DNA of 64,000 bases, taken from NCBI RefSeq assembly GCF_016595465.1, contig NZ_JAENIK010000013.1, positions 62,001 through 126,000 on the forward strand, given 5' to 3'. The stretch comes from Luteolibacter yonseiensis. GTDB lineage: Bacteria > Verrucomicrobiota > Verrucomicrobiia > Verrucomicrobiales > Akkermansiaceae. Numbering within the stretch: position 1 is the stretch's first letter; every line of letters starts with the position of its first letter. Positions 7,977 through 31,742 of the stretch are shown one piece after another. The position numbers and the translations under genes were made by a program. Below the pieces are notes generated by a model. It worked only from the letters and a program-made list of their open reading frames with translations, ran no database searches and was not told the DNA's origin.

Positions 7977-7995
7977 ATAGCTCACGGCAGGACTT
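7924..7995. repeat. 14-bp perfect inverted repeat at the truncated exoD 3' end
   Basis: AAGTCCTGCCGTGA (7924-7937) is perfectly complementary to TCACGGCAGGACTT (7982-7995). On the minus strand the right arm encodes the last codons and stop of the ExoD ORF, so the left arm is an inverted copy of the gene end. A small inner stem (CGTGG/CCACG) could extend the hairpin. It may act as a terminator or mark a rearrangement junction. Confidence 0.6.
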
Positions 7996-8416
7996 TTTCG
8001 TTAAATGAAAAACTCCATTGACCGCTTTGCATGGGCATTGGAACGAGCCTCCGGGTCACCATCCTATCGACTAATTTCGCCAACTTTCGTATCCATTTGT
8101 TCGATGCCGTCGTCTTGATGGTTTCGCTCGCACAACGATCGAGCAGCCATTGCGGAAGCCAAAAGTGACTGCGTCCGCAGATCAGTTGTCCAGCCACCAA
8201 CAGCACATAAATTCCAATCAACGTTGACACCCCGGGGATGTCAGAGACGCCGGGCACCAGCAGGACAATCCCGGCGAACAATATCAATGGACCGAATGAC
8301 CTCCTACCCACCGCATCCATCAGCATGTTCAGTGACACTCTTTTTTCATCCTTTGCTACCTCCTTGAAGCGATCCAGTATTTCGTCAACACTTTTGGGAC
8401 GAGATTGGCCGGACAT
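7982..8416 (-). pseudogene. ExoD-family exopolysaccharide protein, C-terminally truncated
   Basis: The N-terminal ~120 residues match the ExoD family (membrane proteins linked to exopolysaccharide production): SVDEILDRFKEVAKDEKRVS, the GRRSFGPLILFAGIVLLVPG segment, DIPGVSTLIGIYVLLVAGQL and HFWLPQWL. The ORF then stops at 144 residues in the non-family end SFSFNEKVLP. Intact ExoD proteins are near 200 residues with further membrane helices that are missing here. The truncation coincides with a 14-bp inverted repeat. The start used is the ATG at 8416; an upstream extension is not conserved. It may be a non-functional remnant, or a shortened protein keeping two membrane segments. Confidence 0.65.
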
Positions 8417-8666
8417 GGAATTTAGCGGATCGTGAGAGCGAGGTTGATTGCAGCGAACTCTAGCGCAAATGCCGGTAACCGCAAGCGAGCTGCCGCCCGG
8501 CCACACACGGTTGATTCAAATGGATCGAATCTTCCGATCTGTGGACTGCATTGCCAGCACCACCGCCACACAAGAATACAAGTCTCGGGGGCGGCGCGCA
8601 TTCCACGGACAAATCCGCCACCGCACCTGAGATTTTTGTCGTGCGCCACTGCAAGGCACCATCCCC

Positions 8667-9329
8667 CTACGGTTTCCGATTCCTGCGGAGGATCGCCAGC
8701 GGAGTGAAAGCACACAACAACATCGGCACCGTCGGCTCCGGGATGGCGGTGACGGTCAGTGTCCAGCTCTCCAGCGTGCTTTGATTGCCGAAGCCGACAT
8801 CCGCGACGAACAGGGTCCAGTCTCCCGTGGGATTGTCGCCAATGAAATCGGAAAGGGTGGCGGTGCGGGGATCCGCGCCGGTGACATCGTCCGGATCGAC
8901 CAGGCGGCCGTCGGAGGCGTAGGTGCCGGCATACGGGCCGCTTGAAGGTGCCAGGGTGTGGACATCCAAGGGGGCGTTGTCATCCAGGGTGATGTTGATG
9001 CCGGTACTCCCGCTGCCATCCTCCACTCCGTTCTCACGACCCACCCTGTTCAGCAGCATCGCCATGGTGTCGCCATGCACCAGATAGACATAGAGATCGC
9101 CGTTCCAGCCGTCGCTGAAGACAAGGTTCACGGTGACATGCGTGATGTGATAGATCTCCTGCAGCGGCGGGACATCCCCCGAGTCCGCCGTGACGGTGAC
9201 CGCATTGGTGTAGCCGGAGAAATTGTAGTCCGGAATGATAGTGCTGGTGATCGACGATCGCACGATGGTCACGGCGGCATCTGCGGATGCGGTGAGGAGA
9301 CAGGCGAACAGCGGAAGGAATGATTTCAT
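8667..9329 (-). CDS. P-domain (proprotein convertase-like) PEP-CTERM protein
   Basis: The 220-residue exported protein has a signal peptide (MKSFLPLFACLLTASADA), a P/Homo B domain and a PEP-CTERM tail (TAIPEPTVPMLLCAFTPLAI followed by LRRNRKP). The P domain is recognised by ITHVTVNLVFSDGWNGDLYV, the central LAPSSGPYAGTYASDGRL region and the ending LSDFIGDNPTGDWTLFVADV then LESWTLTVTA. P domains usually follow subtilisin-like proteases. Here there is no catalytic domain, so it is a free-standing beta-sandwich. It starts 36 bp downstream of the giant gene's stop on the same strand and could share its transcript. Confidence 0.88.
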   Translation of the reverse strand: MKSFLPLFACLLTASADAAVTIVRSSITSTIIPDYNFSGYTNAVTVTADSGDVPPLQEIYHITHVTVNLVFSDGWNGDLYVYLVHGDTMAMLLNRVGRENGVEDGSGSTGINITLDDNAPLDVHTLAPSSGPYAGTYASDGRLVDPDDVTGADPRTATLSDFIGDNPTGDWTLFVADVGFGNQSTLESWTLTVTAIPEPTVPMLLCAFTPLAILRRNRKP

Positions 9330-9365
9330 GAAGAGAGGGAGTCCGGAGGTGTGGAGGTTGTTTCT

Positions 9366-12300
9366 TCAGTGTTTCTTGATGCGGTAGAAGCCGCTGCCGG
9401 ATGGTGGGTTCACATCGGTGAACTCGATCTTCCCGAGATGGTTCGCGTTGCGGGTGGCGATCACTTCCCATGCCCCGAGGTTCACGGAGCGCTCGATGTC
9501 GTAGGCACGGTTCGGAATCCCCTGGAAGTCCAGTTTTATGTCGCCGTTGACGATGGTGAGCTTCGGCGGATTCGGATTCCCCGCCAGCGGGCTGTCATCC
9601 ACAGGTGCCGCGACCTGAAGCGTGACCGTGACCGTGATGGTGGAGCCATGGGTGTCGCGGATGGTGATCGGGAAACTGTCCTCACCGGAAAAGCCGTCCG
9701 GCGGTATGTAGCTGATGACGGTGGCGTTGCGGACCAGGGTTCCGCCATTCGCCGTCGTTCCCCCATTGGTGAAGCTGAGCGTGTCTCCGTCCTCGTCGTG
9801 TGCCTTCGCGAGGATCTTCGCAAGAGAAAGCGGCACGGGCGTGTTGTGGGGGACGTTGGCGGCATAGCCATCGAAGGTCGGCACGGTGTTGACGAATCCG
9901 GTAAGCGTCAGCTTGAAGTCCGGTTTTTCGGGATCGTTGCTGCGGAGGTGGAGGCTGGTGGTCCGGACTCCGGGGCCCGATGGACGGAAGATCACCTGGA
10001 ACGAGCTCGAATCATTCGGATACAAATAAGGATTCCAGAAATCCCAGGGGTTCATGCCATTACCGAATTCGTTGATTTCGAAATCGCCGGAATGGTCACC
10101 TTCAAGAGACAGGCCGATGTTCAGGGAGCTACCGTAGTCATTGCCCTGGTTCATCACGGTGACGGTGTACTTGTTGCCCTGGCTGGTGCCGGATTGCACG
10201 GTGCCGAAGTCCATGGTCGCGCCGTCCCCCACCTGGTTGTAATTCTGATTGTAAACGGCGATTCTCGGAGCCGGAGGGAGCGGCGTCACATCGATCCTCA
10301 CCGTGGCGGTGCTGGAGTAGCCCGAGGCGGTGGTCAGGGTGTAGGTGAAGCTGTCCTGCCCCTCAAACCAATTCGGGTTGCTGTAGGTGATGGAACTTCC
10401 ATTGATGGCGACCGAGCCCACTCCACTGTAAGTGACGGTGAGCGTGGTGTCCGCCGTGTCGCTGTCGTTGGCCAACAAGGTGGAAATCGGGATGTTCAAG
10501 GTCGCGCCCGAACGGGTTTCCGCAGTGTCGTCCCTGACGAAGGGCAGGCCCGGTGTGGTGACATTGCCACTCAGGAGGCGGGAATAATCCGGCACGGTGA
10601 GAAAACGAACGATCGCTCCCTCGGTGCCGTCGCCGTAGACATAAAGCTCTGTATCCGTCCAATCCGTGAAGGAGACATCGTCCAACGTCAGATCGCCATT
10701 GTGGGAAACCACGATGCCGAGGTTCGCGCCACCGGGATACCTCACGGAATTGTCATGGAAATCACAACCGGTGAGGACCACGTCTCCGCCATCGTTGAAG
10801 ATCGCGGCGCCGAGCTGGGCCTCGAAGTATTGGAAGCCCACGTTTTCCGCAGTGAAGCTGCCGAAGTTGAGCACCGCGCCGCCGACGAAGCGGTTGAAGA
10901 AATTTCCACCCCGGGAGCCGGTGAGCTTGAGATTCTTCAGCGTGAGGCTGGCATTGTCGCTTACGAGGAAGAGACGGAGGGAGGTCGGGGAGTTCCAATC
11001 CAAGGAGGTCCCCAGTTCGAAATTCTCCGAGTCTCCGGCATCAATGGTGATGTCGCCCCGGATCTCGAAGGCGGATCGGTAGATGGGATCGCCGTAGTCG
11101 GTGCCGCTGGAGATCGACCAGCGGTCGTTGGCACCGGTTGCGATCCGGATCGTCCAAGAACTCGACGGGTTTCCTGCGGAGGTGAAGCTGTTGATGAAGC
11201 TGATGGCGGCGCGGAGGGTGCCCGGACCGGAATCCTGGCCGCTGTTGACGACGAGCACACGTTCGCGAATCATCACATCCACCCTCACGTTCTCGGTGGT
11301 GCCGGTGGAATTCGAAACACTGTAGGTGAAGCTGTCGGTTTCCGGGGTGGCATCTTCCGGATCCGCCTTCGCGCTGTTGTCATGCGTATAGCGCAGGACG
11401 GAACCGACCTTTGTGACGGTGCCGTGGGCCGGCTGGCTGAAGGAGGCGATGGCCAGCGGATCCCCGGTGGGATCGGTGTCGTTAGCGAGGACATTGATAT
11501 CGGTGGAGAGACCACGGTAAACGGTGCCGCTGTCGGCGACGCCTCCGGGGAACCCGGCCAGTTGATCGAAGTCCAGCGTGACCGTCGCCGTGGAGGTGAT
11601 GTCGCTCGTGCTCTCGCTGGAGCTGAGGCGCTGGTCGGTGGCCATCGTGATGGAGTAGGTGAAGCTGTCACCGTCGAGCGCGGCATCCGCGTTGTAGGTG
11701 AGGTTGTTGCCATCGCGGGTGATGGGGATACCCTTGGCGCTGGTCGGGCTGACGGTGATGTTTTTCAACGGTGTCCCGAAATCGTTCGCAAGCAGCGTGT
11801 CGATGCCGAAGGTGAGCGGTGCGCCGACCGGATAGGTGACGGTGTCATCCACGGCGAGCGGCAGGCCGGAGATGGCGAGCGTGCCACCGTTCCGCTTGAT
11901 GAGTCCCGCGGACCTGATGAGGGAGTTGTAGACATCCACGGTCGCCAGCGCGCCGTCGCCGACGACGAAAAGCTCCGGGTTCTCGTTGTCGTCGAGCGCC
12001 ACACCTTCCAGGGAAAGCGAGCCGTTGCGGGACCAGATGGTGCCGCCGTCGCTGCCTTGGAACAGCGTCGAGTTGTTGAAGCCGAAATCGCAGTCACGCA
12101 GCACGACCGTGCCGCCGTTGTTATAAATCGCTGCTCCGGTGTGGGCGGTGAGACCGTCGAAGATGACATTGTCCGCCGTGAAGGTGCCGAGGTTGTAGAT
12201 GCCTCCGCCACGGGAGACATTGCTGCCCGCAGGCTGGCCCGCGCTGTAGACCGCCGTTCCCTGGCCGCCACGGAGGACGAGGTTTCTCAGGCTGAGGCGC

Positions 12301-15300
12301 GCACCCGGCGTCACAAGGAAATTCCGGGGGGTGTTGGTGACATACGGAACCTTGATGACGAAAGCATCAAGCCCGGCCGCGAGAGGAGCCTCGATGCTGA
12401 CCTTGCCCCGGATCCTGAAGGCGGAGCGGTAGCCTTCCGCGAAGCCGCCTTCATAGCCGGTCGGCGTAAGGACATAGGCCCGAGGGCGGGAGGCGATCCG
12501 GATCGTCCAGTCCGCCGTGGTGCCGCTGGTGCCGGCGAGAGGCTTGTCCCAGAAGCGGTCCACGATGGCGAGGGCTTCCTTGAGCGTGGTGTGGCCCGCG
12601 TCGTCGGTCGCGTTGAGCGTGTCGTCATCGGTGCTGTTCACGATGATGACGTGGTCGGAAATCGTGATCGCGACGGTGATGGTCCGGATCTCTCCGCCGG
12701 TGTTCGTGGCGGTGTAGGTATAGGTGTCCCCGGTCGCGGATCCGCCGTCGTGGGTGTAGAGGAAGTCCGTTCCGGTATTCACCACCGTGCCATGGGCGGG
12801 TGGATTCGTGATGGCGATGGCCGGATTGCTCCAGTCCCCCGGAGCGGCGGGGATGGTGGTGGTTTCGGACAGACCGCGATAGACGAGCGAGGTGACGGGT
12901 TCGCCGGTGATGACGACGATGACCTCCAGCGGTGCCGAGGTCTGGCCTCCCGCCGTGACGGTGAAGGTGAGAGTCTCGGTGCCGAGCACGTTGGTGAACG
13001 GAGTGTAGGTGACGACCGCGCCATTCACTTGGACACGTCCCAGCGTGGGCGTGCTGGTGAGCTGATAGGACGTGATCGCATCGCCATCCACGTCACTACC
13101 GGCAAGGGTGAAGGAAACCGGGGTGTTTTCGACCGTTACGACGGGAGCGACCGCGGCGAGCGTCGGCGGGTCGTTCACCGGCGTGACGTTGATCGTGACC
13201 GTCGCGGCGGCGGAGGTGAGCACCGAGTCCGTGACACGATAGGTGAAGCTGTCGCTGCCATTGAAGTTCGCGGCAGGAGTGTAGGTGTAGGCGTTTCCAT
13301 TCGCACCCGGTGCGAGCGAGCCGTGGCTTGGCGAACTCACGATCGTGTAGCCGAGCGGGGCGGCACCACCGGTTCCGGACAGGAGCACGGCAACAGCGGT
13401 GTCCTCGTCAGTCACGAAAGTGGCCGGAGCCGCGGCGGGAGCCCGGGTGAAGGTCATGGTGTGGATCGTTTCACGGAACAGCCCCAGGGTGTCCGTCACG
13501 CGGATGCGGACGCTGCGGGTGAGACCGCCGGCGGCATCGATCACGCCAGCGGTCTTCAGCTTCGCTCCGGTAATGACGAAGTCCGCATTTCCGGCGGAAC
13601 CCTCGCCCGCCACCAGGCTGAACGTGAGCAGGCCGGCATCCTCCGGATCCGGGTCGGTGGCGGAAAGCGTGGCGACCGTCAGCCCCGCCGTCTGGCCGGT
13701 GTAGAGGGTGCCGCTTGCCGGAGCCAGCGTGAGCGTGGCGGGTGCCTCGTTCAGGCGGGTCACCGTGATGGAAACCGTGCCCACCGCGCTGGCGTGGGTC
13801 ACACCATTCGTGGCGCGATAGGTGAAAACATCCGTACCGGAATAACCGGCGGCGGGACTGTAGCTGAAGGTGCCGTCCGTAGAGAACGTCAGATTCCCAT
13901 GAGCCGGCGGCGTGACCACGGCGGCGGTGAGATCCGCGGGCGAGCTGTCATTGGCAAGCACGCTGGCCGCACCGCTCACGAGAGTGGTGGCGGTGCCGTT
14001 TTCAAGCATGGCGATGGCATCCGCGCTGGCAACCACGGCAGCCGGAGTCGTCACGCCCGCCGTGGGGGAATAGCCGGAGTACAAGATGCCGACATTGCTG
14101 CGGACGCGGTAGAAATACGGTGTCGAAGGCGAGCGCCCCGCATCGACGTAACTCGCCGAGTCCGCCGCAAGCGTGGAGCTGAGCACGGTCCAGTTCGTGG
14201 AACCATTCGGCGAACGCTCGACGGAGTAGTTGGTTTCCCCGGTGGAGTTGTCCGTCCATGCGAGGGAAATCCGCGTGTCGGATTCCGCCGTCGCGACCAG
14301 ACCGGTCGGAGCAGCGGGTGTACCCACGTAATAGGAAACCATCGGCACACCGCTGGCGGAGATGAAGACGGAGTCCATCATTCCATCTCCATTGAGATCG
14401 ACGAGGTCAAGCGCCTTGGACATCGCGAAGGCCGGTTGTTCGATGATCTTCTGGAAGCGGGCGAATGATCCGTCAAATCCCGTTCCTCTCCAGACCTGGA
14501 TCAGATTGTTGTCGAACTGATACGGGAAAACGAGATCGGCGAATCCATCGTTGTCGAGGTCCGCCACATTCAGCGAACCGGCGTCCGCGACGGACAGCCC
14601 TACCGGCGTGGTCTGGTTCGTGAAGTTGAAGGTCCGGGAATTTGTCGCCTGGCGGTAGATCCGGATGGCACCGTTGTTTCTCACGCCGATGACATCCAAT
14701 CGCCCGTCCTTGTCAAAGTCCGCCGTGATCACCCGGTTCGTCTCGCCGCCGGTGGGCGTGGGCCCGGTGGAGTAACGGCCTGTCCCGTCGTTGTTCCAGA
14801 TTTCCATAGGGCCGTCACCGTTGGCGGTGAAAACGTCCAGGCGGCTGTTGCTGTCGTAGTCTCCGAAGGCCACGGAAAGACCCGCGCCGCTTCCGAGCCG
14901 TTGGGTGGAATCCGTGAATGTTCCGTCGCCGTTGTTGAACCAGACCTGGTCCGCACCGGCTGTCGCGATGAAAAGGTCGAGAGTGCCATCGCCATTCAGA
15001 TCCGCGAGGCCCAGCGAGGTGGCGCTGAGGCCTGCCAGCGTGGACGTCTTGCCGAACGCACCATCGCCATCGTTTCTCCAGATCTCGACATCGCCACCCG
15101 CCTTGCGCAGGACCACATCCAGCCTGTTGCGCGAGCCGGAGGAGCGCGTGATGCCCAGCGAACCGACGAGCACCTGCGAGACCGCGCCGCTGCCCAGGGC
15201 GTGCCCGGCCTGAGTGAACACACCCGCTCCGTTGTTGAGCCAGACACCCGCGCCGTTCGCCCCACCGATGACGAGATCCACGGATCCGTCTCCATTCACA

Positions 15301-18300
15301 TCGCCGCTGGCGAGGGCGTTGGCCGACGAGGCACCCGAGATCGCGCCGGGCGTGGTGAATATTCCATAGCGGCTCCGGCTGCCCGCGCGGAACTGATAGG
15401 TCGCCGGGAATGCCGAATAGCCGTCCAGGCGCTTGAGCCCGCCGGTGATGCTGAACTGCACCTGCTCACCCGCCTTGAAGGGAACCGCCGTTTGCAGGGA
15501 GACGGTGTTGCCCGCGATGCTGTATCCGGTGAGTGATCCGTCCGCGAGGGAGAGGCGGCCGGTTTGCGAACCGTGCACCGCGAAGGAGCCGTCAAGAATC
15601 GAAGCCGGCAGGACGCCTCCGTCCACCACGAAGCTGACCTTCGAAATGGGTCCGGTGAGCATCTGGTTTGCGATACCGGCTTCAGGTCCGGCAGTGGCGT
15701 AAACGTAAATGTAGGTCGCCGCGTTCGAATACAGATCGCCCGCGGTGGCGGTCGTCACATGGACTCGATAGAGGCGGCCATGATAGGAAGGACCACCGGT
15801 GACCGTGAGCGTCGGCGTTTGAACGCCGGACTCGGTGGAAGACTCTACAAGATCCGTCCACGTGCCGTTCAGGCTCACCTGCCATTGGTAGGAAACCTCG
15901 GAGAAATTGGCGGCCACGGAGAAAACTCCGGGAATGCCGTCACCCGCATTCGCATCGACCGGCTGGGTCGTCAGGCGGATCGGCACCAGAGGAAACTCGT
16001 AGGCTCCCATGTCCACCGTCGTTTCAAAAACGCGTGTGGCTCCGGCGAGATCGGTGGCGGAACCGCCCAAGAGGGCGTTTGATCCCCGGTTGATGAGGCT
16101 CGACTGCGGCGAGAGACGATAGTCGCCCGCCGTGGTTCCGGTGGCGGAGGCCGCGACCGGCGCGACGAACCCCGGATCAATCGTGAGATTGCCATTGGCG
16201 GGTTTGAAATCCAAGTGGGCCACGGCATCCTGCACGTCGTTGTTGGAAGTGGAGACTCCGCCACCGACGTTCGCATCGATGAGGTACTGCGTGTATTGGG
16301 AGAGTCCGCCCGTGGCATTGCCCCAGACGATCGTGTTATACATCTCGATGCGTCCGGTGTTCTGGGCGCGGGTGAAGTTGAATCCGCCGATCCCCGTCAC
16401 CCCGTAGTTTCCTGCGATGGTGCAGTTGCGGTAGACCACGTTGTCCCCACCTTCGGAATAGATCCCTCCGCCATACCGGGCGAAGTTGCCGCTGAACAAG
16501 CAGCTCTCGATGGCGGCGGAGACGACGTAGGTCTTCAGACCACCGCCATTCACATCCGCAGCGCCGTTTCCACGGAATTCGCTGCGGCCTATGTACGAAT
16601 TACCCTGCACCAGCACCATCCCCTGCCGGTTCGCGGTGAGCACGGAGTCCGTCACGTTCAATGAGCTCCAAACGGTGTTGATCCCCGCCTGGGTCATTCC
16701 GGTGAACCGGCAGTTTTTGACGGTGATCCAATGCTGGATGGTCGCCGCGTCGGCAATCGACTTGATACCGGTGCCAAGTCCGTCGAACGAGCAGTTCGCC
16801 ACGGTGAGGGTGGAGTTCTTGCCGATGGACACACCGGTCGTCGCGGTATTGAAAGAGAATCCATCGATCCGGATGCCGGTGACGGTGGTGGTGTCTACGG
16901 AAGCAAAGATCGACGAAGTGCCGGCGATACCTTGCAGGACCGTCGGATGGGAAACGATGTTCCTCTGTGCCAGTTCGGTTTCCGTGCCGCTGAAGCCTCC
17001 ATACAGCTCGACTTTCGACCGCAGCGGGAACGCCGCCGCCGTGTCTGTCTCACTTGGCCGGTAGGTGCCACCGGCCACCCAGAACTGTACGCCTGTCGTG
17101 GGATTGAGCCTCGCCTTCGTGAAGGCGGTGCCGACGGTTTTGAACGCCGTCGCCCAGGTGTAGCCGTCGCCATTGTCATCGGCTGCGGCGGCGTTGACGA
17201 AATAGCGCTGAGGGTAAACGGACAGCACCGCGCTGCGTGAGATGATCGCGCCGCCGTTGGTTCCGTTGACCTTCACGCGGAAAAAGTAGCCGTGCTTGGT
17301 CGGATCATCCGAGAGCAGTTGGAGCGTGGATGTCCGCGCGCCGGAGAAGCCCGTGCCATCCACGACCGGGGTATAAGCGATGCCGTTCGGCGAATATTCC
17401 CACTGGAAGACGTAGTTCGATCCGGCAAGCACGACCTGGAACTTTCCCGGACCGGCCTGCACGGGCAGCACGAGATCCGCAGGCTGCTGCGTGATGATGA
17501 GCGGATCACTCTGCGAGCCTTGGAATTCATAAGCGCCCAGGTCCACCGTGCGCACCGCACGCGGTGCGTTGTCCGCATCGATGGCCAGTCCTTCCAGCAG
17601 GCTGTTGTCACCGGCATCGACGCCCGGCGATCCTCCCTGAAGCCGGAAGTCCCCCGCCAGCATCGGCGCATCCGCCGCATTGATATCGCTGTAGAAGATG
17701 GGCGCGAAGCCCAGGTTCGGTCCGCCCGCGGCACGTCCCTCCACATTGGAAGTCTGGAGCGAGAAGCCTCCTCCGAAGAGATGGTTGGTGTATTGCTGTG
17801 CGTCGAGCGAGCCGCTGGAAGCGCGGTTGCCCCAGATGATCGAGTTCCGGATGCTCGCGCCGGCGCTGATGTAGGCGTAGAGACCACCGCCCTCACCCGC
17901 GAAGTTCCCCACCACCGTGCTGTTCAGGAGGACGTGTGGATTACCCCCGGAAATGTTGATTCCTCCGCCCGAGCCGGTCGCCTTGTTGCCGGTGACGACG
18001 AGGTTTTCCATCCGCACCGAACCGTTGAAGATACTGATGGCACCGCCGCTGCCACTTGCGACGTTTCCGCGGAAGGTCGAGCCTGAGAGGGTCACCGTGC
18101 TGGCATTGAATGACGCACCCGCACCCGAGGAGGAGGTGTTTTCAAGGAACTGGCAGTTCTCCACCCTGCCGCCGGCGGAGGAGATCGAGAGACCGCCGTC
18201 GGTATTCCGCGAGACGATCAGATTCCGCAGGGTCGGGCGGGCGTTGGAGGTCACGCTGATGCCGCGCTTCCCGTTCACGACGGAGAAGCCGTCGAAGATC

Positions 18301-24300: not shown

Positions 24301-27300
24301 AGGCCGGAGTAGGAGTCCTCGAGAATGAACCCGTCGAGCAGGCCGGTGCGGTCCGTCGAATGATTGGAGACAACGTGGCGGCTGTATCCGGTGCGGTTTG
24401 TCGCGCCATTCAACCTGCCGCTCAGGATGGTGGGACGCGTGACCGGATTCCTGTCAACAAGCGCGGTCGACGAAGAATGGAAACCACCATAGATTTTCAC
24501 TCCGAGCGGAATCTGGAAAGACGCATTGGTATCCCCTCCGCTGGTCGGGAGATAGGTCCCGCCCGCGACCCATACCGCGGTGCCAGGGCCGCTGACTTTC
24601 AACGCATCCGCCAGACTGCCAAAGGCCGTGTGCCAGGAGAGTCCGTCCGCCGACATGTTGAGCCGCGCGGCATCTACATAGATCCGCGCCGGAGGCAGCG
24701 TGAGCCGTGTGGAGGTCGTCGTGAGGGTGGTCCCGCCACGCACGACCTGCAGACGGAAAAGGTAACCATTCGCACCGGCCGGCGGCGCGGTGATCGTCAG
24801 CGTGCGGGAATTGACTCCCGAATACACCCCGTCCTCCGTGAGCGGAACAAAGTTGCCGTCGCCGCGATCCACATACCAGACGAGCACATCCCCCTCTTCC
24901 ACCGCGAAGGTGGTGTTCCTGATGAAACGAAGCACACCGCCTGAGAAATCCGAGCTTGCGATGACCCGCCCGAGAGCGGCCGGACCGGTGTATTCATAAG
25001 GACCGAGATCCACAACCGCCGAGCTGACGCGGGCATTTCCCTCCAGATCTGTTTCGGTGAGGAGGTAACCACCGCCGTAGGAAGCCGTTCCCGAGTTGAT
25101 CGCGGGCGACGCGCTGGCTAGGCGGAAATTCTCATTGTTGATGTCCACGAATCCCGGAGCTTCATCGAAGTTGCCCATTTGCGGAATGTTCGCATGCCGG
25201 TTCAGCCCCTGGACCAGAGAATGATTCGCGAACACGGGGCCGTCGCCCTTGACCAGGACCTGCTGGTCCTCGAGTCCGTCCAGTCCGCCCGAACCGGAGT
25301 TCACAGCAGAGTTGTTGTAAAATATGCTGTTGTAGAGTTCCACCGTGTAAGCACCGGGAATCGTATGATCCTGGTAAACCGCGCTGCCACCGAGCGGGGT
25401 GGCGGACAAAAGCTTCGCCTGGTTTCCGTAGAACGTGGAGTTGGTGAGCCTGAGCGAAATTCCCTGGCTGGAGATCGCGCCGCCCCGGCCATCCAAAGAG
25501 CGGTTGCCAAAGAACAAACCGTTTTTCAGGTTGAAGGACAAACCGGCGGTCGTTCCGTTCAGAGCGACCGCGCCACCCGATCCCGCGCGGTTGTTCTTGA
25601 AGATGCAGTTCTCGATCGAAACCGATGAGTTGTAGCTGATGGCGCCGCCCGTCAGTTCCGCGGTGTTGTTTTCAAAACGGCAGCCGGTTATGTCCGAGCC
25701 GAACAGATAACCCGGCGTGCCGGTGGAGGCGACCGCTCCCCCGTTTCTCGCGTGGTTGTCGCGGAAAACACAATTCTGGATCGTCGGGCTGGAGCTGATG
25801 TTGAGGATCGCGCCGCCATCCTCGTCGTCCGAGTAAGCGTTCTCGAAGGTGAGTCCGTCCAGGATCGTGGAGGCACCCACGTTCTCGTTCCGGAACAAAT
25901 GCCGTGAATTGTCCAAGGCGCTTGATGAGGACCCGATGTTTCCACTGATGCGGGTCACACGCACCGTGGGCTTGCGCGCATCACGCAGCGATTCGGTGCC
26001 TTTGAAGCCACCATAGACCTTCACCGCGTAGCTGTTGATCGAGAAGGAAGCGTTCCGGTCCGTGCCGGTGGTTGGATAATACGTTCCTTCCTGCACCCAT
26101 ACCTGCGCGTTGGGCTTGGCCATCGCCGCCTGCAGGTCGCTGGTCGCATCCGCCCAGCCGGTTCCGCTGCCATCGCCCGTGGCAACCGGCCTCACATAGA
26201 CATAGGCAGCCTTTGACATTTCAGTGGGCCGCAGCCGTGAGACCGGGGAATAATAAGTCGAGGCACCCCGGATGAGCCGCAGGCGGAAAAGGAAGTTGCT
26301 CGGCGGGGTCAGGACCGTGAGCGAAGGAGTGTTCAACCCGAGATACGCATCCGGCAGAGGCTCGTCGCCCGGGTCGTTCGCGCCGAGGATACCGAAGCCC
26401 GTGCCGTCGCCGCGATCCACCTGCCATGCGAGGATGTCGCCCTCCTGAGCGTCGTAGTCGGTGGCGGTGTAGCTATAGCTCTCCAGTCCGGATGAGGCCG
26501 CAGCGATTTTCCGAATCGGATTGGCGGGGGTCGGAGGATGCTCGTATGGCCCGAGGTCGATGGTGCCGATGATGCGGTTGTTCCCATCCAGGTCGGTCGT
26601 CTCAAGCCGGCTGGAAATCTCGTTCATCGATCCGGACTCGATGGTCGGAGAGGTGGCGGCGACATGGAAGTTCGTGCCTTCCTGCAAGAAGACCGGATCA
26701 CCATCGAAGTTTCCGTTTCCGGTAAAAGTCTGGAGTCCGTGGATCAGCGAGTTCTTAGCTCCGCCGAAGCTGCCGGCGGCAAGGGAGATCTGTTGTTTTT
26801 CCGTGTTCGCGACTCCGCCCGTTCCCGTGTTGACGGCGGTGTTTTTATAGAAAATGGAGTTATACAATCCCAGCGATGCGTTGCCGGATCCTTTGTCAAA
26901 AGAGACACCACCACCGGCGGCAGAACCGGTCGAACCGACCGTGGCCCGGTTGCCATAGAGCGTGGAGTTGATGACATAAAAACCCATCCCCTTCGCCCAG
27001 ATGGCTCCGCCCGTGCCGGCGGTCGCCCGGTTCCCGGCGAACAGGCTGTTCTGCACGGTGCAGTTCTGCCCATCCATGTCACCCGTGGTCTGGATGGCCC
27101 CACCCGTCTGTGCGGTGTTGTCTTTGAAAAGCAGATTCGCTCCGGCCCATGAGCCGTCGATGTAAATGGCACCGCCGCCCAGCTCTGCACTGTTTTCGTG
27201 GAACTCGCAGTTGAACAGCTTGGAACCGTATGCGACTCCGGTGGTGTCGGTCGAGGAGATCGCGCCACCGTTGCGCGCGTGGTTGTTGCGGAAAACACAG

Positions 27301-30300
27301 TTCCGGATCGAGGGGTTCGAGCGGATGCCTTGGATCGCACCGCCGTCCTCACCTTCCGCATGGGCGTCCTGAAGATAGAGTCCATCGAGCACCGCAGAAC
27401 TCCCCACATCTGTGTTACGGAAGAGATGCCGGGTGTTGTCCTCCGCGCCGGAGCCGCCGATGGCTCCGCTGATGATCGTCGGGTTCGCACGCCAGTCGCG
27501 CGTCGCCAGCCTGGTTTCATTTCCTTTGAAACCACCATAAACCTCCACTCCATCCCCCATCGAAAATGACGCGTCCCGATCCGTCCCCGATGTCGGAGCA
27601 TAAGTGCCCGCCGCGACCCACACCTCGGCGGAAGTCCGCGCGATGGCGCTCCGCAGATCGCTGGTGGCGTTGATCCAGCTGGAGCCGCTGCCATCCCCCG
27701 TCGCCACCGGTTTCACATAGACATAGCGATAGATGCTTTCCGCGGTAGGTTCCAGAATGGCTACGGGCGAAAGATAATTCAGTCCGTTGTGGGTCAGTTG
27801 CAGACGATAGGAGAATCCGTTCGGCCGGGATGACACGGTCAGTGTGCCGGTGGCCACGCCCTGGTTTTCCTCCCTTTCCGTCAACGCCACATACCCCAGC
27901 CCGTCGCCACGATCCACATACCACCGCAACGTATCACCTGAGACGGCGGTGTATCCCGTGGAGAAAATATAGCTCTCGGTCCCCACCGAGGTCTTTGCCA
28001 CATTCTTCACCGGATGCGCGGGAGCCCCGCTGTGCTCATAGGGACCAAGGTCGATCTTCCCATTCACCAGGCGGCTCGCACCCGCCAGATCAAGGGTGAT
28101 CGCCTGGGTGTAAATGCTCCCTGAGTCGCCGGAGTCGATCGCAAGGGACGTTGGCAGCAGACGGAAATCCGTTCCCTCCGTGACGAACTGTGGGTCGCCG
28201 CTAAAGTTGCCATTGATCGGACCACCGCCGAAGGTGCTCAGTCCGTGTACCAGCGAGTTTCTCAGCAGCGGGCCCGCCGACTGGATCTGCTGTTTCTCCA
28301 CGGTTTGCCCGCCACCGGTGCCGAGATTCACCGCCGTGTTCTTGTAGAAGATGGAGTTGAAAATCTGTGCCGTGGTATCCGCCGGAACCGAGGTTCCGTC
28401 GTCGATCGCACCGCCGCCCGTCTTCTGTGTGGACGTGGCGGTGGCGCTGTTTCCGTAGAACGTCGAGTTCACGACGTTCAACTGGAGCATCGAGCTGGAG
28501 ATGGCCCCACCCGCTCCGGAGGCTGATGCGTTGTTGGAGAACAAGCCGTTCTGGATCGTGCAGAACTGGCCGGGGATGGAGCCGGTCACGGAGATCGCGC
28601 CACCCGCTGTGCCCGCAGTGTTTCCGTTGAAGACCAGATTGTTTCCGAACAACGTATGCGCGTATGAAACCGCTCCACCCGCCGCCTCAGCGGAGTTGTT
28701 GCGGAACTCGCAGTTCACCAGGATCGAGCCTTCCACGAGGCCGGAAGAATGGATCGCGCCGCCGTTCCGGGCGTGGTTGTTCAGGAACACGCAGTTCCGG
28801 ACCAGCGGTGCGGAATCGACATTGAGGATCGCGCCGCCATCCGCATCCGAGCTATATGCGTCACGGAGCGTGAATCCGTCCAGCACGGTCGAGCTCGCCC
28901 GGCGTGCGTTGGTGTTCTTGAAAAGGTTTTTGGAATTGTCACCCGCGACATTCGGAGTGCCGATGTCGCCGCTGATGATGGTCACCCGGGTCTTCCAATC
29001 CCGCGCCGCGCGCGTCGTCTCCGTACCGGCGAATCCGCCGAAGACACGCACTCCGTCGGCAAGTGAAAACGAGGCATTCCGGTCGCTGCCGGTGGTCGGA
29101 CGATAGGTGCCCGCCGCGACCCATACCTCGGCGTTCGCATGACTGACGGCCGCCGCCAGATCGCTCGTCGCGTTGGCCCAGCTCAAACCGCTGCCGTTAC
29201 CGGTTGCGGTAGGTCTCACATAATACACCGCCACCCCCGAAGGGATGGTCGCGTTGATCATGCCTGCGGAACCCGCGCCGACGCCCGACGCCACCGGGTT
29301 GCTGGAGCTCCCCGCGCCAACCTCCACGGTGGTGCCCGCGAGCGCAGAAGAATCCGGCAGCGTGCTGTCCACCTCGTAGGCACCGATGTCGACCCGGGAA
29401 TTCAGCACCCGCTTCTTACCCGCCACGTCCATGATGTTCTCCAGATCGACGGCGTGGGAAATCATCTTCCAGGTGATCCACTGGTTGGCACCGGCGTTGT
29501 TGGCAGGCGACTGCACGCTGGGTTTCCCCTTCGGAGAGGAGACCAGCATCGGGTCCGCGGAGCTGTTGCCATAGGCGGGGTCACGCAGCTTCGGCCGGAC
29601 ACCCTCACCCACGTTCACCGCGCCAGAGCTTTCCAGCTCGCCGCGCGCGTCCGCTTCCCGCGTGGCGGCGATCGCCGCATTGATCTCGCTCTGGGACAGG
29701 TTGACGCCAGCAAGTCGCGGCGCGATGCGGTCCGTCCCGAGCGGAATGGTGTCCAGACTCTGGATGATGGAGTTCCGGATATCCATGATGCCCAGCCAGT
29801 TCACCTGTTCACCCTGGAGCGCGTTGTAACGGGCGCGCGCGTTTTCATCGAGCATGGACTCCGTGACCGCCTCGACATCCGCGCCGCTCGCCACCGTCTT
29901 GTTCGCGTTGTTCCAGAGGATCGAGTTGTAAACCCGGACATCCGCCCCCATCGCCGCCGAAAGGGCCTTGCCCAGGGCGGTCTCGGACTTGTTGTTGATG
30001 ACGGTGCAGTTCACCATCATCATGATCGAGTTGAAGCTGTTCGCGACCGCGCTCGTGCCATCCGTCGAGGTGTTGTTCGCGAAGACCGAGCTGATCACCT
30101 GCGGCATGTTCCACATCGCGCTGGAGATCGCGCCACCATTCGACTCTGCCCTGTTTTTGGTGAAGGTGCAGTTCTCGACCAGCAGGTTGTTGAAGACCAG
30201 CTCGATGGCTCCCCCTTCGTTGCCCGCCTCGTTCCCGGTGAATGTGCAAGAGGCGAAGGCGGACCGCCCTGCCTCGGTATAGTTTTCATAACCGGCTTTC

Positions 30301-31742
30301 TTGGTTCCGATCAGGTCCGGGGAAACACCCGGCAGGGCGGCATTGATCGCGGCGTGTGCCCCGAGACTGATCAGGCCCTGGGGGGTGGCATATTTGTTGA
30401 AGCCCTCGTTGACGGCGACCCACCGTTTGTAGTCCGCGCTGTTTTTATCCAGCTTCCCGAAGTGGTCCAGGACCTTCACGATGTTATCGGCCGCGGCGAA
30501 GCCGATCTGCACAACGGCGTAGGCCGCCATCAGGCGCGAACCCGGGGAAATGTTGGTGTTCGTGACCGTCGCTCCCCCGACCTGGGTGGATCCTTTGGCA
30601 AATGGATTCGGAATCGTGGAGGCGAACTTGGAAAAGAACCCGCCTTCGGAAGTGATGAACTTGTTCGAAGCCTTGTAAACGCCATACGCCGTCAGCAGGG
30701 AGCCGATCTTTTCCCGGGTCGCCGTCTCGTCGTTGAGGCCATAGATCGAAAATGCTACCGAACGGAGCGTGTCATTGAATCCGTCAACGTTGGCATCGCT
30801 CGCACGCTCGGACGGGATGCCCATGATCTTGACCGCTCCTCCGCCGTCCTTGGAGAAGTTGTTGCTGAAGGTGCTTTGGACAAAGCCACTCTGCTGGTTC
30901 AGCCCCCAGAACGCCCCCGCCGCACCTTCGCAAAGGTTCTGCTCGAATTCACACCCGCCAATGAAGGCACTCCCGTCATACAGCGCGACCGCGCCGCCGT
31001 AACCACGTGCCTGGTTCCGGGCGAACCGGCAGTTCAGCATCTGCAACCCGTAGCGCGCCGCCGTCCAGGTCGACCCCGTGTTGAAATAAAGTCCTCCGCC
31101 CACCACCGTGGAGTATGGCTTCACGGCGGACTTGGCACCCGTCGTCTCGGGAACATCCGCATACATCTCGTAGCCGTCGATGTCGGCCCGGTCGATCGCG
31201 GTGTTGGTGGCCGCTCCGCCGGTGATCGTCAGGAATTCCAAAGTGACGCCTTCCACACCATCACCCACGACCACGTTGTAACTGTTGTCCGCCCATCCGG
31301 GATCGTCGTTGGAGGCAAGCAGCGCGGGAGATCCGTTGAGCGCCGTGATCGCACCGATCATCGGAGTGCCGATGTCACCGCTCAACACCGTGGGATTACC
31401 CCAAGGAGATCGGGCATCCACCGTTGCTTCATCCCCCCGGAATCCACCTCGGAGGATCATGTTGTTCTTCAGACGGAACGCCACGGTCCGGTCGATCCCA
31501 GTCGTGGGCTTATAGGTGCCGGTCTTGATCCAGATCTCCGTGCCCGGAGCCGCCGCCGCGAGTGCCGTCTGGAGATCGGGGTAGGCCTTCGCCCACGTTG
31601 AGCCGTCCGGCGAGGCATGCGTCGCATCAGAAGCCACCCGCAGGATCGCTGCCGAAGCGTTCGCGGAAAAAAACATCAGGCCCAACAACAGCCACAATCG
31701 GGGGAAAAAAAGGTGTGATTGTTCGGGCAACGCCCGTTTCAT
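9366..31742 (-). CDS. Giant secreted multidomain repeat protein (~7,458 aa), putative adhesin
   Basis: This is one uninterrupted frame of 22.4 kb. After a signal peptide (LWLLLGLMFFSANASA) come ten tandem modules of roughly 420-800 residues. Each opens like YVRPTATGNGSGLSWANATS, then EVWVAAGTYRPTTG and a VFGGFAGTET turn, runs through right-handed beta-helix rungs (IRNCVFRNNHARNGGA-type) and closes with VDLGAYE, followed by an Ig-like spacer. Approximate module starts: 31650, 29235, 27725, 26205, 24685, 23325, 21748, 20164, 18644 and 17208. Then follow a Big_5-like region (~15680-15400), FG-GAP repeats with six DxDxDG-type calcium loops (~15370-14330), Fn3 (~14320-14070), cadherin/Big repeats (~14010-12690), two more helix regions (~12650-11800 and ~11245-10600), an ASPM/Hydin-like domain (~10270-9900) and a final beta domain ending in FYRIKK. 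No PEP-CTERM or LPXTG tail is seen. An upstream ATG at 31787 is an alternative start. Confidence 0.92.
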   Translation of the reverse strand: MKRALPEQSHLFFPRLWLLLGLMFFSANASAAILRVASDATHASPDGSTWAKAYPDLQTALAAAAPGTEIWIKTGTYKPTTGIDRTVAFRLKNNMILRGGFRGDEATVDARSPWGNPTVLSGDIGTPMIGAITALNGSPALLASNDDPGWADNSYNVVVGDGVEGVTLEFLTITGGAATNTAIDRADIDGYEMYADVPETTGAKSAVKPYSTVVGGGLYFNTGSTWTAARYGLQMLNCRFARNQARGYGGAVALYDGSAFIGGCEFEQNLCEGAAGAFWGLNQQSGFVQSTFSNNFSKDGGGAVKIMGIPSERASDANVDGFNDTLRSVAFSIYGLNDETATREKIGSLLTAYGVYKASNKFITSEGGFFSKFASTIPNPFAKGSTQVGGATVTNTNISPGSRLMAAYAVVQIGFAAADNIVKVLDHFGKLDKNSADYKRWVAVNEGFNKYATPQGLISLGAHAAINAALPGVSPDLIGTKKAGYENYTEAGRSAFASCTFTGNEAGNEGGAIELVFNNLLVENCTFTKNRAESNGGAISSAMWNMPQVISSVFANNTSTDGTSAVANSFNSIMMMVNCTVINNKSETALGKALSAAMGADVRVYNSILWNNANKTVASGADVEAVTESMLDENARARYNALQGEQVNWLGIMDIRNSIIQSLDTIPLGTDRIAPRLAGVNLSQSEINAAIAATREADARGELESSGAVNVGEGVRPKLRDPAYGNSSADPMLVSSPKGKPSVQSPANNAGANQWITWKMISHAVDLENIMDVAGKKRVLNSRVDIGAYEVDSTLPDSSALAGTTVEVGAGSSSNPVASGVGAGSAGMINATIPSGVAVYYVRPTATGNGSGLSWANATSDLAAAVSHANAEVWVAAGTYRPTTGSDRNASFSLADGVRVFGGFAGTETTRAARDWKTRVTIISGDIGTPNVAGDNSKNLFKNTNARRASSTVLDGFTLRDAYSSDADGGAILNVDSAPLVRNCVFLNNHARNGGAIHSSGLVEGSILVNCEFRNNSAEAAGGAVSYAHTLFGNNLVFNGNTAGTAGGAISVTGSIPGQFCTIQNGLFSNNASASGAGGAISSSMLQLNVVNSTFYGNSATATSTQKTGGGAIDDGTSVPADTTAQIFNSIFYKNTAVNLGTGGGQTVEKQQIQSAGPLLRNSLVHGLSTFGGGPINGNFSGDPQFVTEGTDFRLLPTSLAIDSGDSGSIYTQAITLDLAGASRLVNGKIDLGPYEHSGAPAHPVKNVAKTSVGTESYIFSTGYTAVSGDTLRWYVDRGDGLGYVALTEREENQGVATGTLTVSSRPNGFSYRLQLTHNGLNYLSPVAILEPTAESIYRYVYVKPVATGDGSGSSWINATSDLRSAIARTSAEVWVAAGTYAPTSGTDRDASFSMGDGVEVYGGFKGNETRLATRDWRANPTIISGAIGGSGAEDNTRHLFRNTDVGSSAVLDGLYLQDAHAEGEDGGAIQGIRSNPSIRNCVFRNNHARNGGAISSTDTTGVAYGSKLFNCEFHENSAELGGGAIYIDGSWAGANLLFKDNTAQTGGAIQTTGDMDGQNCTVQNSLFAGNRATAGTGGAIWAKGMGFYVINSTLYGNRATVGSTGSAAGGGVSFDKGSGNASLGLYNSIFYKNTAVNTGTGGVANTEKQQISLAAGSFGGAKNSLIHGLQTFTGNGNFDGDPVFLQEGTNFHVAATSPTIESGSMNEISSRLETTDLDGNNRIIGTIDLGPYEHPPTPANPIRKIAAASSGLESYSYTATDYDAQEGDILAWQVDRGDGTGFGILGANDPGDEPLPDAYLGLNTPSLTVLTPPSNFLFRLRLIRGASTYYSPVSRLRPTEMSKAAYVYVRPVATGDGSGTGWADATSDLQAAMAKPNAQVWVQEGTYYPTTGTDRNASFSINSYAVKVYGGFKGTESLRDARKPTVRVTRISGNIGSSSSALDNSRHLFRNENVGASTILDGLTFENAYSDDEDGGAILNISSSPTIQNCVFRDNHARNGGAVASTGTPGYLFGSDITGCRFENNTAELTGGAISYNSSVSIENCIFKNNRAGSGGAVALNGTTAGLSFNLKNGLFFGNRSLDGRGGAISSQGISLRLTNSTFYGNQAKLLSATPLGGSAVYQDHTIPGAYTVELYNSIFYNNSAVNSGSGGLDGLEDQQVLVKGDGPVFANHSLVQGLNRHANIPQMGNFDEAPGFVDINNENFRLASASPAINSGTASYGGGYLLTETDLEGNARVSSAVVDLGPYEYTGPAALGRVIASSDFSGGVLRFIRNTTFAVEEGDVLVWYVDRGDGNFVPLTEDGVYSGVNSRTLTITAPPAGANGYLFRLQVVRGGTTLTTTSTRLTLPPARIYVDAARLNMSADGLSWHTAFGSLADALKVSGPGTAVWVAGGTYLPTSGGDTNASFQIPLGVKIYGGFHSSSTALVDRNPVTRPTILSGRLNGATNRTGYSRHVVSNHSTDRTGLLDGFILEDSYSGLLHNDGASPTIRNCVFRDNDSSRAGDGYGAAMSNINGANPLIAECQFLGNTGVYGGALYIAGASATVENSVFARNSASGSGGAVFMKKGTLDLVHCTVADNTSKGTVAALYAQDSTVKVSNSIFWNNRTTYQGWTTYERAIRADGGTLMFRSSCIDGLTSLTDGNVKFDPIFDPARGGDYALALYSPLVNAASTVYTTSSTTDLLGRPRVRESAPDMGAYELAGNAAAPVQLNSLPRSRTAYNIGGSVDFTVSWPVGTTLNPAWTLYIGTTPLPAGRYTFVTGPGFSTVRVNGLSLLDSGLKVSFSDTARQVNSIPSAILTVKEPRIVRVNPVATGTNDGTSWLNAYTSLSRALENAETADEIWVTGGTHTPVSAPNFNLNGAVNLFGGFAGTETTRSQRNPLTHPTILHAVGTNPVFYAATPDSDSGLSSAIDGFTIGDSTGPATIYHAGVIIAYRNCVFRNNAGYLGNFQSQVQYENCEFTGNTGNLFIVDRSTVTLGNSRIHDNTTSSDLLTSSNESTVVISDTVVNGNTIAGAFIRSGSGTGAHLTVLRSAFRGNTTGGAIIANNTAGTCVIEGSLFAKNIASGGMATLQNSGSLSMTFSTVADNRGGSFGGGLYTYRQAASTIKNSIFWGNRGTRATSTSEQHQLGDPAGTDGMGTVTVGQSIIESVPTPLSSYNANNNMSFYPLFVDPSAGDYHLSPNSPAAITSNASNMTLLSSTDLDKVQRRGFYGAAGAYESPADSGNPLLISNYPTSTSATEGTDTSFTYVGHNFKQWQYLDGNGNWVTITGDTGSFRLIRSPDGTTRTLYFDAPSLAMNGARFRAVIERTTGGVTQTITSGDLVLTVTRPQVIYVNGGAASPGDGKSWATAFGTIQQALAVTNEYSEIWVQGGSYDINTASLKWNVHLYGGFAGNETARADRNVAANEVTLLGSGRQIFLSADSTAARNAKTTDAVLDGFTLIGANDKTAVYLSNSESVIRNCTFRGNGGAIEAAGQSNPVIANCVFDSHSSTVLVLDGDAATISGCSFLNNVNTASSGTTVYIYRGNVKITDSTFSGNVNNGALLIAFSDYSSTSAANVIDGKATQVTMNRCAITGNSAYAVFQSSQALLNLDNSLVARNTVYAPAIRGFSQCQFNLTNVTIAHNNGATETAGIANDGRTNLKNSILWGNRTSWPYAALNNPGSQSLVENSQIKLGSQGTVISNSLVEGAYVINGNGNDGYDPLFIDADAGNYQLPAFSPAVNRGTASGIPTGALDLASTPRIQGSNPDSGAYEFTGTAVSPIQLKTNHGARAVVVGRQVQYSVQTTAGVNVQWQVKSGGSFVNVVSGGDLVLSGNGSIMTLNKVPLSMNGTEFRFVLSGNATYTSSGGVLTVTPKTILYVNAGATGDGNGTSWANAFTSVNGAILAAADPLTGGPRDIWVSRGTYDTYTSLPPGVDLYGGFAGVEAGRDERNVRGNPTILIRNSSSPAATNILSSGSYTDTLKFGEVIDGFTFTGSTGGITVSNAPLLVRNCTFSGLAGYGVINVKGPLTVEDCTFNQSGSVAVVGGPSSTTTIRRSIFQGGKDNSVQSSAQSVITVEDSVFQDNTPTDPTDPVVYVSTGSTVNLVRSKFVGNHNNSVVNNDGRIFIRQSLFADNHGAGVDMTYRAEATQLVSCTIAGNDQWGIGIGWQNQSLRLTNCIIAGNGFRQQIYTDSGGVFASYTLVQGETYGGTGNMSWDPLFTDAGAGDYTLSARSPAVNAGNAAAVNAGETDVTGAVRIQSGLPDLGAYESSHAPDPLYRSALPTSLATIRGVDGVFSITGDPSYTFTWQYKNGSEWITITFNNVTGQWEGPNGIPVIITTVNGVSKLTFPSPALAANGIKVRVTINGQGVTSEELTLTVNEPETMYVDASVTTTGDGKTWATAFKTLDEALVENPTRLSPGRRIIRIAKGTYTAPVYGFGIRQRVEIYGGYPNGGGARDVTANPVILSGERGDPSSTGDNSDQVLSVNAISSPIAADTIFDGFSVVNGKRGISVTSNARPTLRNLIVSRNTDGGLSISSAGGRVENCQFLENTSSSGAGASFNASTVTLSGSTFRGNVASGSGGAISIFNGSVRMENLVVTGNKATGSGGGINISGGNPHVLLNSTVVGNFAGEGGGLYAYISAGASIRNSIIWGNRASSGSLDAQQYTNHLFGGGFSLQTSNVEGRAAGGPNLGFAPIFYSDINAADAPMLAGDFRLQGGSPGVDAGDNSLLEGLAIDADNAPRAVRTVDLGAYEFQGSQSDPLIITQQPADLVLPVQAGPGKFQVVLAGSNYVFQWEYSPNGIAYTPVVDGTGFSGARTSTLQLLSDDPTKHGYFFRVKVNGTNGGAIISRSAVLSVYPQRYFVNAAAADDNGDGYTWATAFKTVGTAFTKARLNPTTGVQFWVAGGTYRPSETDTAAAFPLRSKVELYGGFSGTETELAQRNIVSHPTVLQGIAGTSSIFASVDTTTVTGIRIDGFSFNTATTGVSIGKNSTLTVANCSFDGLGTGIKSIADAATIQHWITVKNCRFTGMTQAGINTVWSSLNVTDSVLTANRQGMVLVQGNSYIGRSEFRGNGAADVNGGGLKTYVVSAAIESCLFSGNFARYGGGIYSEGGDNVVYRNCTIAGNYGVTGIGGFNFTRAQNTGRIEMYNTIVWGNATGGLSQYTQYLIDANVGGGVSTSNNDVQDAVAHLDFKPANGNLTIDPGFVAPVAASATGTTAGDYRLSPQSSLINRGSNALLGGSATDLAGATRVFETTVDMGAYEFPLVPIRLTTQPVDANAGDGIPGVFSVAANFSEVSYQWQVSLNGTWTDLVESSTESGVQTPTLTVTGGPSYHGRLYRVHVTTATAGDLYSNAATYIYVYATAGPEAGIANQMLTGPISKVSFVVDGGVLPASILDGSFAVHGSQTGRLSLADGSLTGYSIAGNTVSLQTAVPFKAGEQVQFSITGGLKRLDGYSAFPATYQFRAGSRSRYGIFTTPGAISGASSANALASGDVNGDGSVDLVIGGANGAGVWLNNGAGVFTQAGHALGSGAVSQVLVGSLGITRSSGSRNRLDVVLRKAGGDVEIWRNDGDGAFGKTSTLAGLSATSLGLADLNGDGTLDLFIATAGADQVWFNNGDGTFTDSTQRLGSGAGLSVAFGDYDSNSRLDVFTANGDGPMEIWNNDGTGRYSTGPTPTGGETNRVITADFDKDGRLDVIGVRNNGAIRIYRQATNSRTFNFTNQTTPVGLSVADAGSLNVADLDNDGFADLVFPYQFDNNLIQVWRGTGFDGSFARFQKIIEQPAFAMSKALDLVDLNGDGMMDSVFISASGVPMVSYYVGTPAAPTGLVATAESDTRISLAWTDNSTGETNYSVERSPNGSTNWTVLSSTLAADSASYVDAGRSPSTPYFYRVRSNVGILYSGYSPTAGVTTPAAVVASADAIAMLENGTATTLVSGAASVLANDSSPADLTAAVVTPPAHGNLTFSTDGTFSYSPAAGYSGTDVFTYRATNGVTHASAVGTVSITVTRLNEAPATLTLAPASGTLYTGQTAGLTVATLSATDPDPEDAGLLTFSLVAGEGSAGNADFVITGAKLKTAGVIDAAGGLTRSVRIRVTDTLGLFRETIHTMTFTRAPAAAPATFVTDEDTAVAVLLSGTGGAAPLGYTIVSSPSHGSLAPGANGNAYTYTPAANFNGSDSFTYRVTDSVLTSAAATVTINVTPVNDPPTLAAVAPVVTVENTPVSFTLAGSDVDGDAITSYQLTSTPTLGRVQVNGAVVTYTPFTNVLGTETLTFTVTAGGQTSAPLEVIVVITGEPVTSLVYRGLSETTTIPAAPGDWSNPAIAITNPPAHGTVVNTGTDFLYTHDGGSATGDTYTYTATNTGGEIRTITVAITISDHVIIVNSTDDDTLNATDDAGHTTLKEALAIVDRFWDKPLAGTSGTTADWTIRIASRPRAYVLTPTGYEGGFAEGYRSAFRIRGKVSIEAPLAAGLDAFVIKVPYVTNTPRNFLVTPGARLSLRNLVLRGGQGTAVYSAGQPAGSNVSRGGGIYNLGTFTADNVIFDGLTAHTGAAIYNNGGTVVLRDCDFGFNNSTLFQGSDGGTIWSRNGSLSLEGVALDDNENPELFVVGDGALATVDVYNSLIRSAGLIKRNGGTLAISGLPLAVDDTVTYPVGAPLTFGIDTLLANDFGTPLKNITVSPTSAKGIPITRDGNNLTYNADAALDGDSFTYSITMATDQRLSSSESTSDITSTATVTLDFDQLAGFPGGVADSGTVYRGLSTDINVLANDTDPTGDPLAIASFSQPAHGTVTKVGSVLRYTHDNSAKADPEDATPETDSFTYSVSNSTGTTENVRVDVMIRERVLVVNSGQDSGPGTLRAAISFINSFTSAGNPSSSWTIRIATGANDRWSISSGTDYGDPIYRSAFEIRGDITIDAGDSENFELGTSLDWNSPTSLRLFLVSDNASLTLKNLKLTGSRGGNFFNRFVGGAVLNFGSFTAENVGFQYFEAQLGAAIFNDGGDVVLTGCDFHDNSVRYPGGANLGIVVSHNGDLTLDDVSFTDWTDTELYVYGDGTEGAIVRFLTVPDYSRLLSGNVTTPGLPFVRDDTAETRSGATLNIPISTLLANDSDTADTTLTVTYSGVGSVAINGSSITYSNPNWFEGQDSFTYTLTTASGYSSTATVRIDVTPLPPAPRIAVYNQNYNQVGDGATMDFGTVQSGTSQGNKYTVTVMNQGNDYGSSLNIGLSLEGDHSGDFEINEFGNGMNPWDFWNPYLYPNDSSSFQVIFRPSGPGVRTTSLHLRSNDPEKPDFKLTLTGFVNTVPTFDGYAANVPHNTPVPLSLAKILAKAHDEDGDTLSFTNGGTTANGGTLVRNATVISYIPPDGFSGEDSFPITIRDTHGSTITVTVTLQVAAPVDDSPLAGNPNPPKLTIVNGDIKLDFQGIPNRAYDIERSVNLGAWEVIATRNANHLGKIEFTDVNPPSGSGFYRIKKH

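Follow-up and report, generated by a model that had tools for sequence, protein, structure and literature searches.

Giant surface proteins are common in the genomes of Planctomycetota and Verrucomicrobiota and, to our knowledge, there is no explanation for how they are exported and held at the cell. Enrichment of giant proteins in the PVC superphylum is also reported in the accessible parts of three studies (PMC11573180, PMC5177795, PMC12057145). The locus analyzed here raises the question anew: what is a protein of this size made of, and by what means could it be kept at the cell surface? The gene lies in contig 13 of a genome, probably verrucomicrobial, of 5.73 Mb in 13 contigs, within a window of 64,000 nucleotides (the whole stretch of DNA that was analyzed).

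Organization of the giant gene

The giant gene is one intact frame on the minus strand (7,501 codons stop to stop, ending at a stop at 9366), whose length has a chance probability of ~1e-95 at the local base composition. Two candidate starts exist, an ATG at 31787 (7,473 aa) and Met16 at 31742 (7,458 aa), the latter directly preceding a clear signal peptide. The initial annotation had described a single uninterrupted frame of 7,458 residues and this was borne out, no internal stop being present; the strand, the paralogue, the C-terminal domain and the companion gene described below were all absent from it. The GC content at codon positions 1, 2 and 3 is 56, 52 and 78%, and an antisense open frame of 1,705 aa inside the gene (9351-14468, plus strand) is most likely a by-product of the high GC3. 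The signal peptide is the sole hydrophobic segment above 1.7 on the Kyte-Doolittle scale, with no membrane segments beyond it in a hydropathy scan of the whole chain, and the predicted mass is roughly 770 kDa. The features of the locus are the following.

8667-9329, minus strand: companion gene P0002, 36 nt after the stop of the giant; signal peptide, P_proprotein domain (PF01483), PEP-CTERM-type tail
9366-31787, minus strand: giant gene, 7,473 aa (7,458 aa from Met16), by ORF reading
9369-9572, minus strand: C-terminal FYR domain (residues 7406-7473), by profile searches
9612-9893, minus strand: constant cadherin-like domain (Cadherin_5/Big_9, residues 7299-7392), at the same position in other cassettes
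9894-10220, minus strand: Cep192/ASPM-Hydin-like Ig domain (residues ~7190-7298), below the Pfam cut-off
10458-11000, minus strand: small beta-helix 12 (residues ~6930-7110), weak Beta_helix match below cut-off
11718-12275, minus strand: small beta-helix 11 (residues ~6505-6690), by sequence reading, without a Pfam match of its own
12288-14045, minus strand: Big_9/cadherin-like (tandem-95) repeats, by Pfam and NCBIfam
14073-14312, minus strand: Fn3 domain (residues ~5826-5905), by domain searches
14283-15695, minus strand: Ig-like domain (SwmB-type by eye), then FG-GAP propeller (residues 5365-5835), by domain searches
15993-24692, minus strand: modules 5-10 (residues 2366-5265), each a beta-helix with choice_anch_Q closing and ~100-aa spacer, by NCBIfam and HMMs
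24990-29246, minus strand: modules 2-4 (residues 848-2266) with Ig-like spacers, a window-specific triplication, by HMMs and tree
29370-31652, minus strand: module 1 (residues 46-806), beta-helix with insert, by own HMMs and sequence reading
31650-31742, minus strand: signal peptide (MKRALPEQSH...ANASAA), by hydropathy and sequence reading

The FG-GAP, Fn3 and cadherin/Big domains, the two additional helices and the ASPM/Hydin-like domain that had been proposed to follow the ten modules were all recovered, some of them weakly. The propeller has about seven blades, six of them with clear Ca-type loops. Weak Pfam matches to TcdB_midN, Adeno_E1B and Dockerin were attributed to a general resemblance to FG-GAP or beta-helix sequences and discounted. 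A secreted modular chain of ten beta-helix units and Ig-like spacers makes the long surface rod of the earlier proposal plausible, but the terminal binding head attributed to it was not sustained: the propeller is situated at about 73-78% of the chain, ~1,650 residues follow, and a conserved tail occupies the C-terminus.

Neither an autotransporter outer-membrane beta-barrel at the C-terminus nor a T9SS sorting domain was matched in the giant (Pfam, NCBIfam), and a GlyGly-CTERM tail was not found in the NCBIfam scan, a hydrophobic tail also being absent. PEP-CTERM is likewise absent from the giant, in which only the signal peptide is hydrophobic and which ends in ...GFYRIKKH.

The C-terminal domain and the companion gene

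The last 68 residues of the giant match the extreme ends of other large secreted proteins of the phylum. A profile (A1) was built from 11 members, whose invariant residues include a terminal FYR; the domain is called FYR because it ends in these residues. Of 289 genomes of the phylum, 91 have a match to the profile, and in 42 of ~49 significant matches the domain lies no more than 10 residues from the stop; at one locus of genome G017 the match falls inside the frame. No Pfam or NCBIfam family covers the domain, the nearest sequence match in the PDB is an insignificant one to an Fn3-like protein, and a single-sequence structure model of the tail was useless (pLDDT 35). Plasmid records gave only generic cadherin/tandem-95 matches to the tail and no companion, and a scan of the contigs of named relatives gave one weakly related Paludibacteraceae locus.

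The companion P0002 carries the marks of PEP-CTERM cargo, namely a signal peptide and a C-terminal PEP followed by a hydrophobic stretch and basic residues (IPEPTVPMLLCAFTPLAILRRNRKP). The Pfam PEP-CTERM model gave no score on P0002; the PEP of the tail is invariant in 15 homologues. No recognised enzyme domain was found in the companion. As in the known PEP-CTERM/exosortase sorting systems (PMC1569441), the signal peptide and PEP-CTERM-type tail coexist with exosortases, three PF09721 matches occurring in the same genome, whereas the giant itself is without PEP-CTERM. Exosortase was also present in 22 of 22 cassette genomes, a count that covers cassette genomes only and is therefore weak. Most PEP-CTERM genes have been reported as single-gene operons (PMC1569441), so that the strict second-gene position of the companion is a departure.

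The same genome encodes a second giant of 6,105 aa (C11:1351250-1369597), broadly collinear with the first, which rules out that the giant is unique in its genome. This paralogue, with seven module openings, is accompanied by its own P-domain/PEP-CTERM companion (L039 and L040, C11:1350564-1369597), which is 53% identical to P0002 over 206 aa and stands in the same order after a similar-sized gap. A third pair is found at C12:1151742.

In order to be counted as a cassette, a locus had to carry the FYR domain at the C-terminus of the first gene and the companion directly downstream on the same strand, an arrangement that both the window giant and its paralogue display. The companion, used as query, retrieved 21 loci with sufficient sequence upstream, and 20 of these have an ORF ending in FYR directly before the companion on the same strand, mostly across gaps of 29-240 nt (652 nt in one case). 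When the loci retrieved with the tail are added, the overall proportion is 26 of 27; companion L111 stands without an FYR gene upstream. A phylum-wide search with a companion profile added six loci from other genomes, and in every one of them the companion is again preceded by such an ORF, one of the six FYR matches being weak (E 0.006). PEP-CTERM genes are seldom found next to genes whose FYR match is weak (E above 1e-12), which serve as an internal control.

The upstream genes differ widely. Leaving the window's own aside, the shortest payload has 751 aa and the longest at least 6,169 aa, and they carry RCC1, kelch, FG-GAP_2 with LamG, PATR or Calx-beta domains, usually with a Cadherin_5/Big_9 domain preceding the FYR tail. 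The payloads vary while tail and companion stay, and the giant turns out to be one form of a two-gene surface cassette with a wide distribution. The cassette, for which no description of the tail-companion pair was found in the open-licence literature, appears to be undescribed, and is the more interesting result. The companion is not always needed, since none was seen downstream of three strong FYR genes (L012, L015, L016) and an unrelated neighbour follows two others.

Several variants of the arrangement were observed. In two genomes of genus g19 (L070 in G303, L071 in G236) the FYR genes are followed by a different PEP-CTERM protein of ~300 aa, similar between the two loci, which is perhaps a second companion type. 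In G017, two FYR-tailed giants with nearly identical tails (L154, L155) stand in tandem upstream of one companion, possibly as a result of tail gene conversion. Behind some FYR-like genes, a companion-like P-domain is part of a longer ORF that has other extensions (L131, L132, L133, L165; in the genome of the window at C2:170937-171524). Beside the window cassette are genes for a small PEP-CTERM protein (7095-7742, minus strand) and an ExoD-like protein (7982-8506, minus strand), and farther off one for an AbiEii-type nucleotidyltransferase of a type IV toxin-antitoxin family (39409-40290, minus strand; Pfam).

Proposed export and retention at the cell surface

The explanation that best accommodates the whole locus is a surface fibre. 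The giant would be exported via Sec as a fibre of ~770 kDa without membrane segments, in which the ten beta-helix/Ig units may form a long stalk or display array and the propeller and cadherin-like domains would lie nearer the C-terminus. The constant tail of the payload (cadherin-like domain plus FYR) would dock non-covalently on the companion, whose PEP-CTERM tail would be processed by exosortase, and this would keep the pair on the surface of the cell or within the polysaccharide there. The fibre might then act in adhesion or matrix scaffolding through its helices and propeller. This account is put forward tentatively, as a whole whose probability falls a little short of even; the sequences and the model show the gene with its modules, the fold of one of these, the FYR tail, the companion with its conserved linkage and the genes for exosortase, and docking, retention, orientation and adhesion are what we infer for the giant. 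Given the shared C-terminal tail and the conserved companion, the C-terminus looks like the held end, and the helices at the N-terminus, module 1 and its insert among them, like the free end.

Extended to the phylum, the fibre account becomes that of a two-gene display system, in which interchangeable FYR-tailed giants would dock on an exosortase-sorted P-domain partner, cargo and sorting tag being split between two genes rather than fused, and the window fibre would be among the largest payloads. This extension has a good deal less than an even chance of being right. The cassette would account for a C-terminal domain that has no name and occurs in roughly one in three of the genomes sampled from the phylum; it also suggests that a neighbouring gene can supply the signal for sorting in trans. 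Since both the tail and the small partner are constant, the holding of giants may become testable on two small domains instead of a 770-kDa protein. Other giant PVC surface proteins are likewise extracellular, rich in Big_9/Cadherin domains and enriched in the superphylum; the accessible parts of the reports mention neither a common tail nor a companion (PMC5177795, PMC11573180).

Tail and companion could instead work as a pair in export or maturation, with the P-domain protein as chaperone, gate or maturation factor at the outer membrane and the FYR-tailed proteins being afterwards released or held otherwise. Strict adjacency and a constant C-terminal domain would also suit a secretion signal, and no outer-membrane route was found, SprA_N giving no match in the genome in a search that had no working positive control. 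However, the PEP-CTERM tail predicts retention after exosortase processing and not catalysis, and the lack of a recognised enzyme domain in the companion also counts against such a pair, which we regard as unlikely while giving it real weight. It is quite improbable that the linkage reflects shared transcription only, that is, two surface proteins co-expressed from one promoter without physical interaction: the short gaps suit simple co-transcription, but payloads change completely while tail and companion persist together across several families of the phylum.

The ten modules and their history

Exactly ten openings and ten closings were found with our own HMMs, and GGF-type turns occur in all ten modules (RGGF in module 1, GGY in module 9), in agreement with the modular plan read initially. 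The closings match NCBIfam choice_anch_Q (NF041518), the two halves of the giant scoring 104 and 105 bits against a curated cut-off of 25, and eight separate matches fall within its frame in a genome scan. The pitch is ~505 aa, modules being ~350-430 aa except module 1 (761 aa), whose helix contains an insert of ~190 aa that is probably helical; the module 1 of the paralogue has one too. Protein identity among modules is ~30%, but 49-54% among modules 2-4. The Ig-like spacers proposed earlier stood in part: nine spacers of ~100 aa follow modules 2-10 and the one modelled is Ig-like, while the first spacer is a Gly/Ser-rich stretch of 41 aa and not Ig.

One of the ten modules, module 3 with its spacer, was modelled with AlphaFold, with all ten modules as input (pLDDT 81, pTM 0.82), and consists of a beta-helix with an N-terminal cap followed by an Ig-type sandwich. 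Rhombotarget A, whose chain contains one helix of this kind and ends in a GlyGly-CTERM/rhombosortase tail, is the best solved fold for it (Z 31.8, 332 residues, 20% identity). This surface beta-helix protein of Acinetobacter (9CDU/9CDV; PMC12643943) has no match to the module at the sequence level, and no PDB sequence matches the module profile. Choice-of-anchor Q proteins (NF041518; Pfam Beta_helix/Chlamydia PMP-type repeats) match the modules as a unit, helix then Q closing; the giant differs from them in having ten in one chain, with Ig-like spacers, and a C-terminal tail of a type other than PEP-CTERM or LPXTG.

The next solved folds, pectate lyase Pel9A (Z 28.4) and PL6 alginate lyases, bring up the alternative that the helices are polysaccharide lyases or carbohydrate-binding modules forming a catalytic array for polymer degradation. 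A PVC protein of ~6,000 aa with tandem CASH helices, from Ca. Menyafoubacter, has been so interpreted according to the accessible part of its report; it resembles the giant in its signal peptide, tandem beta-helices and lack of a transmembrane helix, and differs in its PL6, Rhs and internalin domains and in that no cassette context is described there (PMC12057145). Yet no lyase family matches the giant (Pfam, NCBIfam), and no invariant Lys or Asp cluster in the helix runs across the modules, whose invariant residues are mostly Gly, Asn, Trp and those of the closing motif and look structural in character. A catalytic array is thus decidedly improbable and was dropped as the default reading for want of invariant catalytic-type residues, although single modules could be active individually.

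A tree of 26 modules, those of two related proteins in G024 and G002 among them, matches the modules of the window giant with those of the paralogue according to their place in the chain: 1 with 1 (support 100/99), 9 with 6 (99/96), 10 with 7 (96/91) and 8 with 5 (94/77). Modules 1, 2 and 3 of the G024 and G002 proteins likewise pair by position, and window modules 2-4 form an exclusive clade (100/99), a local triplication. The pairing indicates that the chain is old, that several positions kept their identity and that the triplication enlarged it here; it rules out homogenisation of modules within each gene, except for modules 2-4. Such position-specific conservation argues that the modules are not interchangeable spacer units.

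The highest DNA identity between modules is 68.5% (over 499 nt), and the longest direct repeat that is exact measures 21 nt, so that an assembly artefact arising from the module repeats is ruled out as far as these values go and is an unlikely source of the module number. That the giant is an artefact of assembly or a decaying, unexpressed gene has a negligible chance of being true, given also the open frame with its GC3 of 78%, the ~30% protein identity of the modules and a paralogue matched position by position.

The initial annotation knew of no described family with ten such modules in one chain. Ten modules with opening, GGF turn and closing are indeed the most seen here, but other tandem chains exist (seven openings in the paralogue, five in G024 and three in G002 with our own HMMs), and together with one in G244 they rule out that the giant is the only tandem chain. 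The last is a frame of 3,198 aa (L100, C1:1648000-1661500) with nine choice_anch_Q closings ~1 kb apart, whose helices are of another type and lack the GGF opening. The choice_anch_Q family is present in 103 of 241 genomes of the phylum sample. The rarity claimed for genes over 22 kb was overstated, as the same sample contains open frames of 20,466, 18,189, 17,103 and 14,839 aa (G073, G214, G244 and G097, respectively), and published PVC proteins reach 85,800 aa, a figure cited in the accessible part of PMC12057145.
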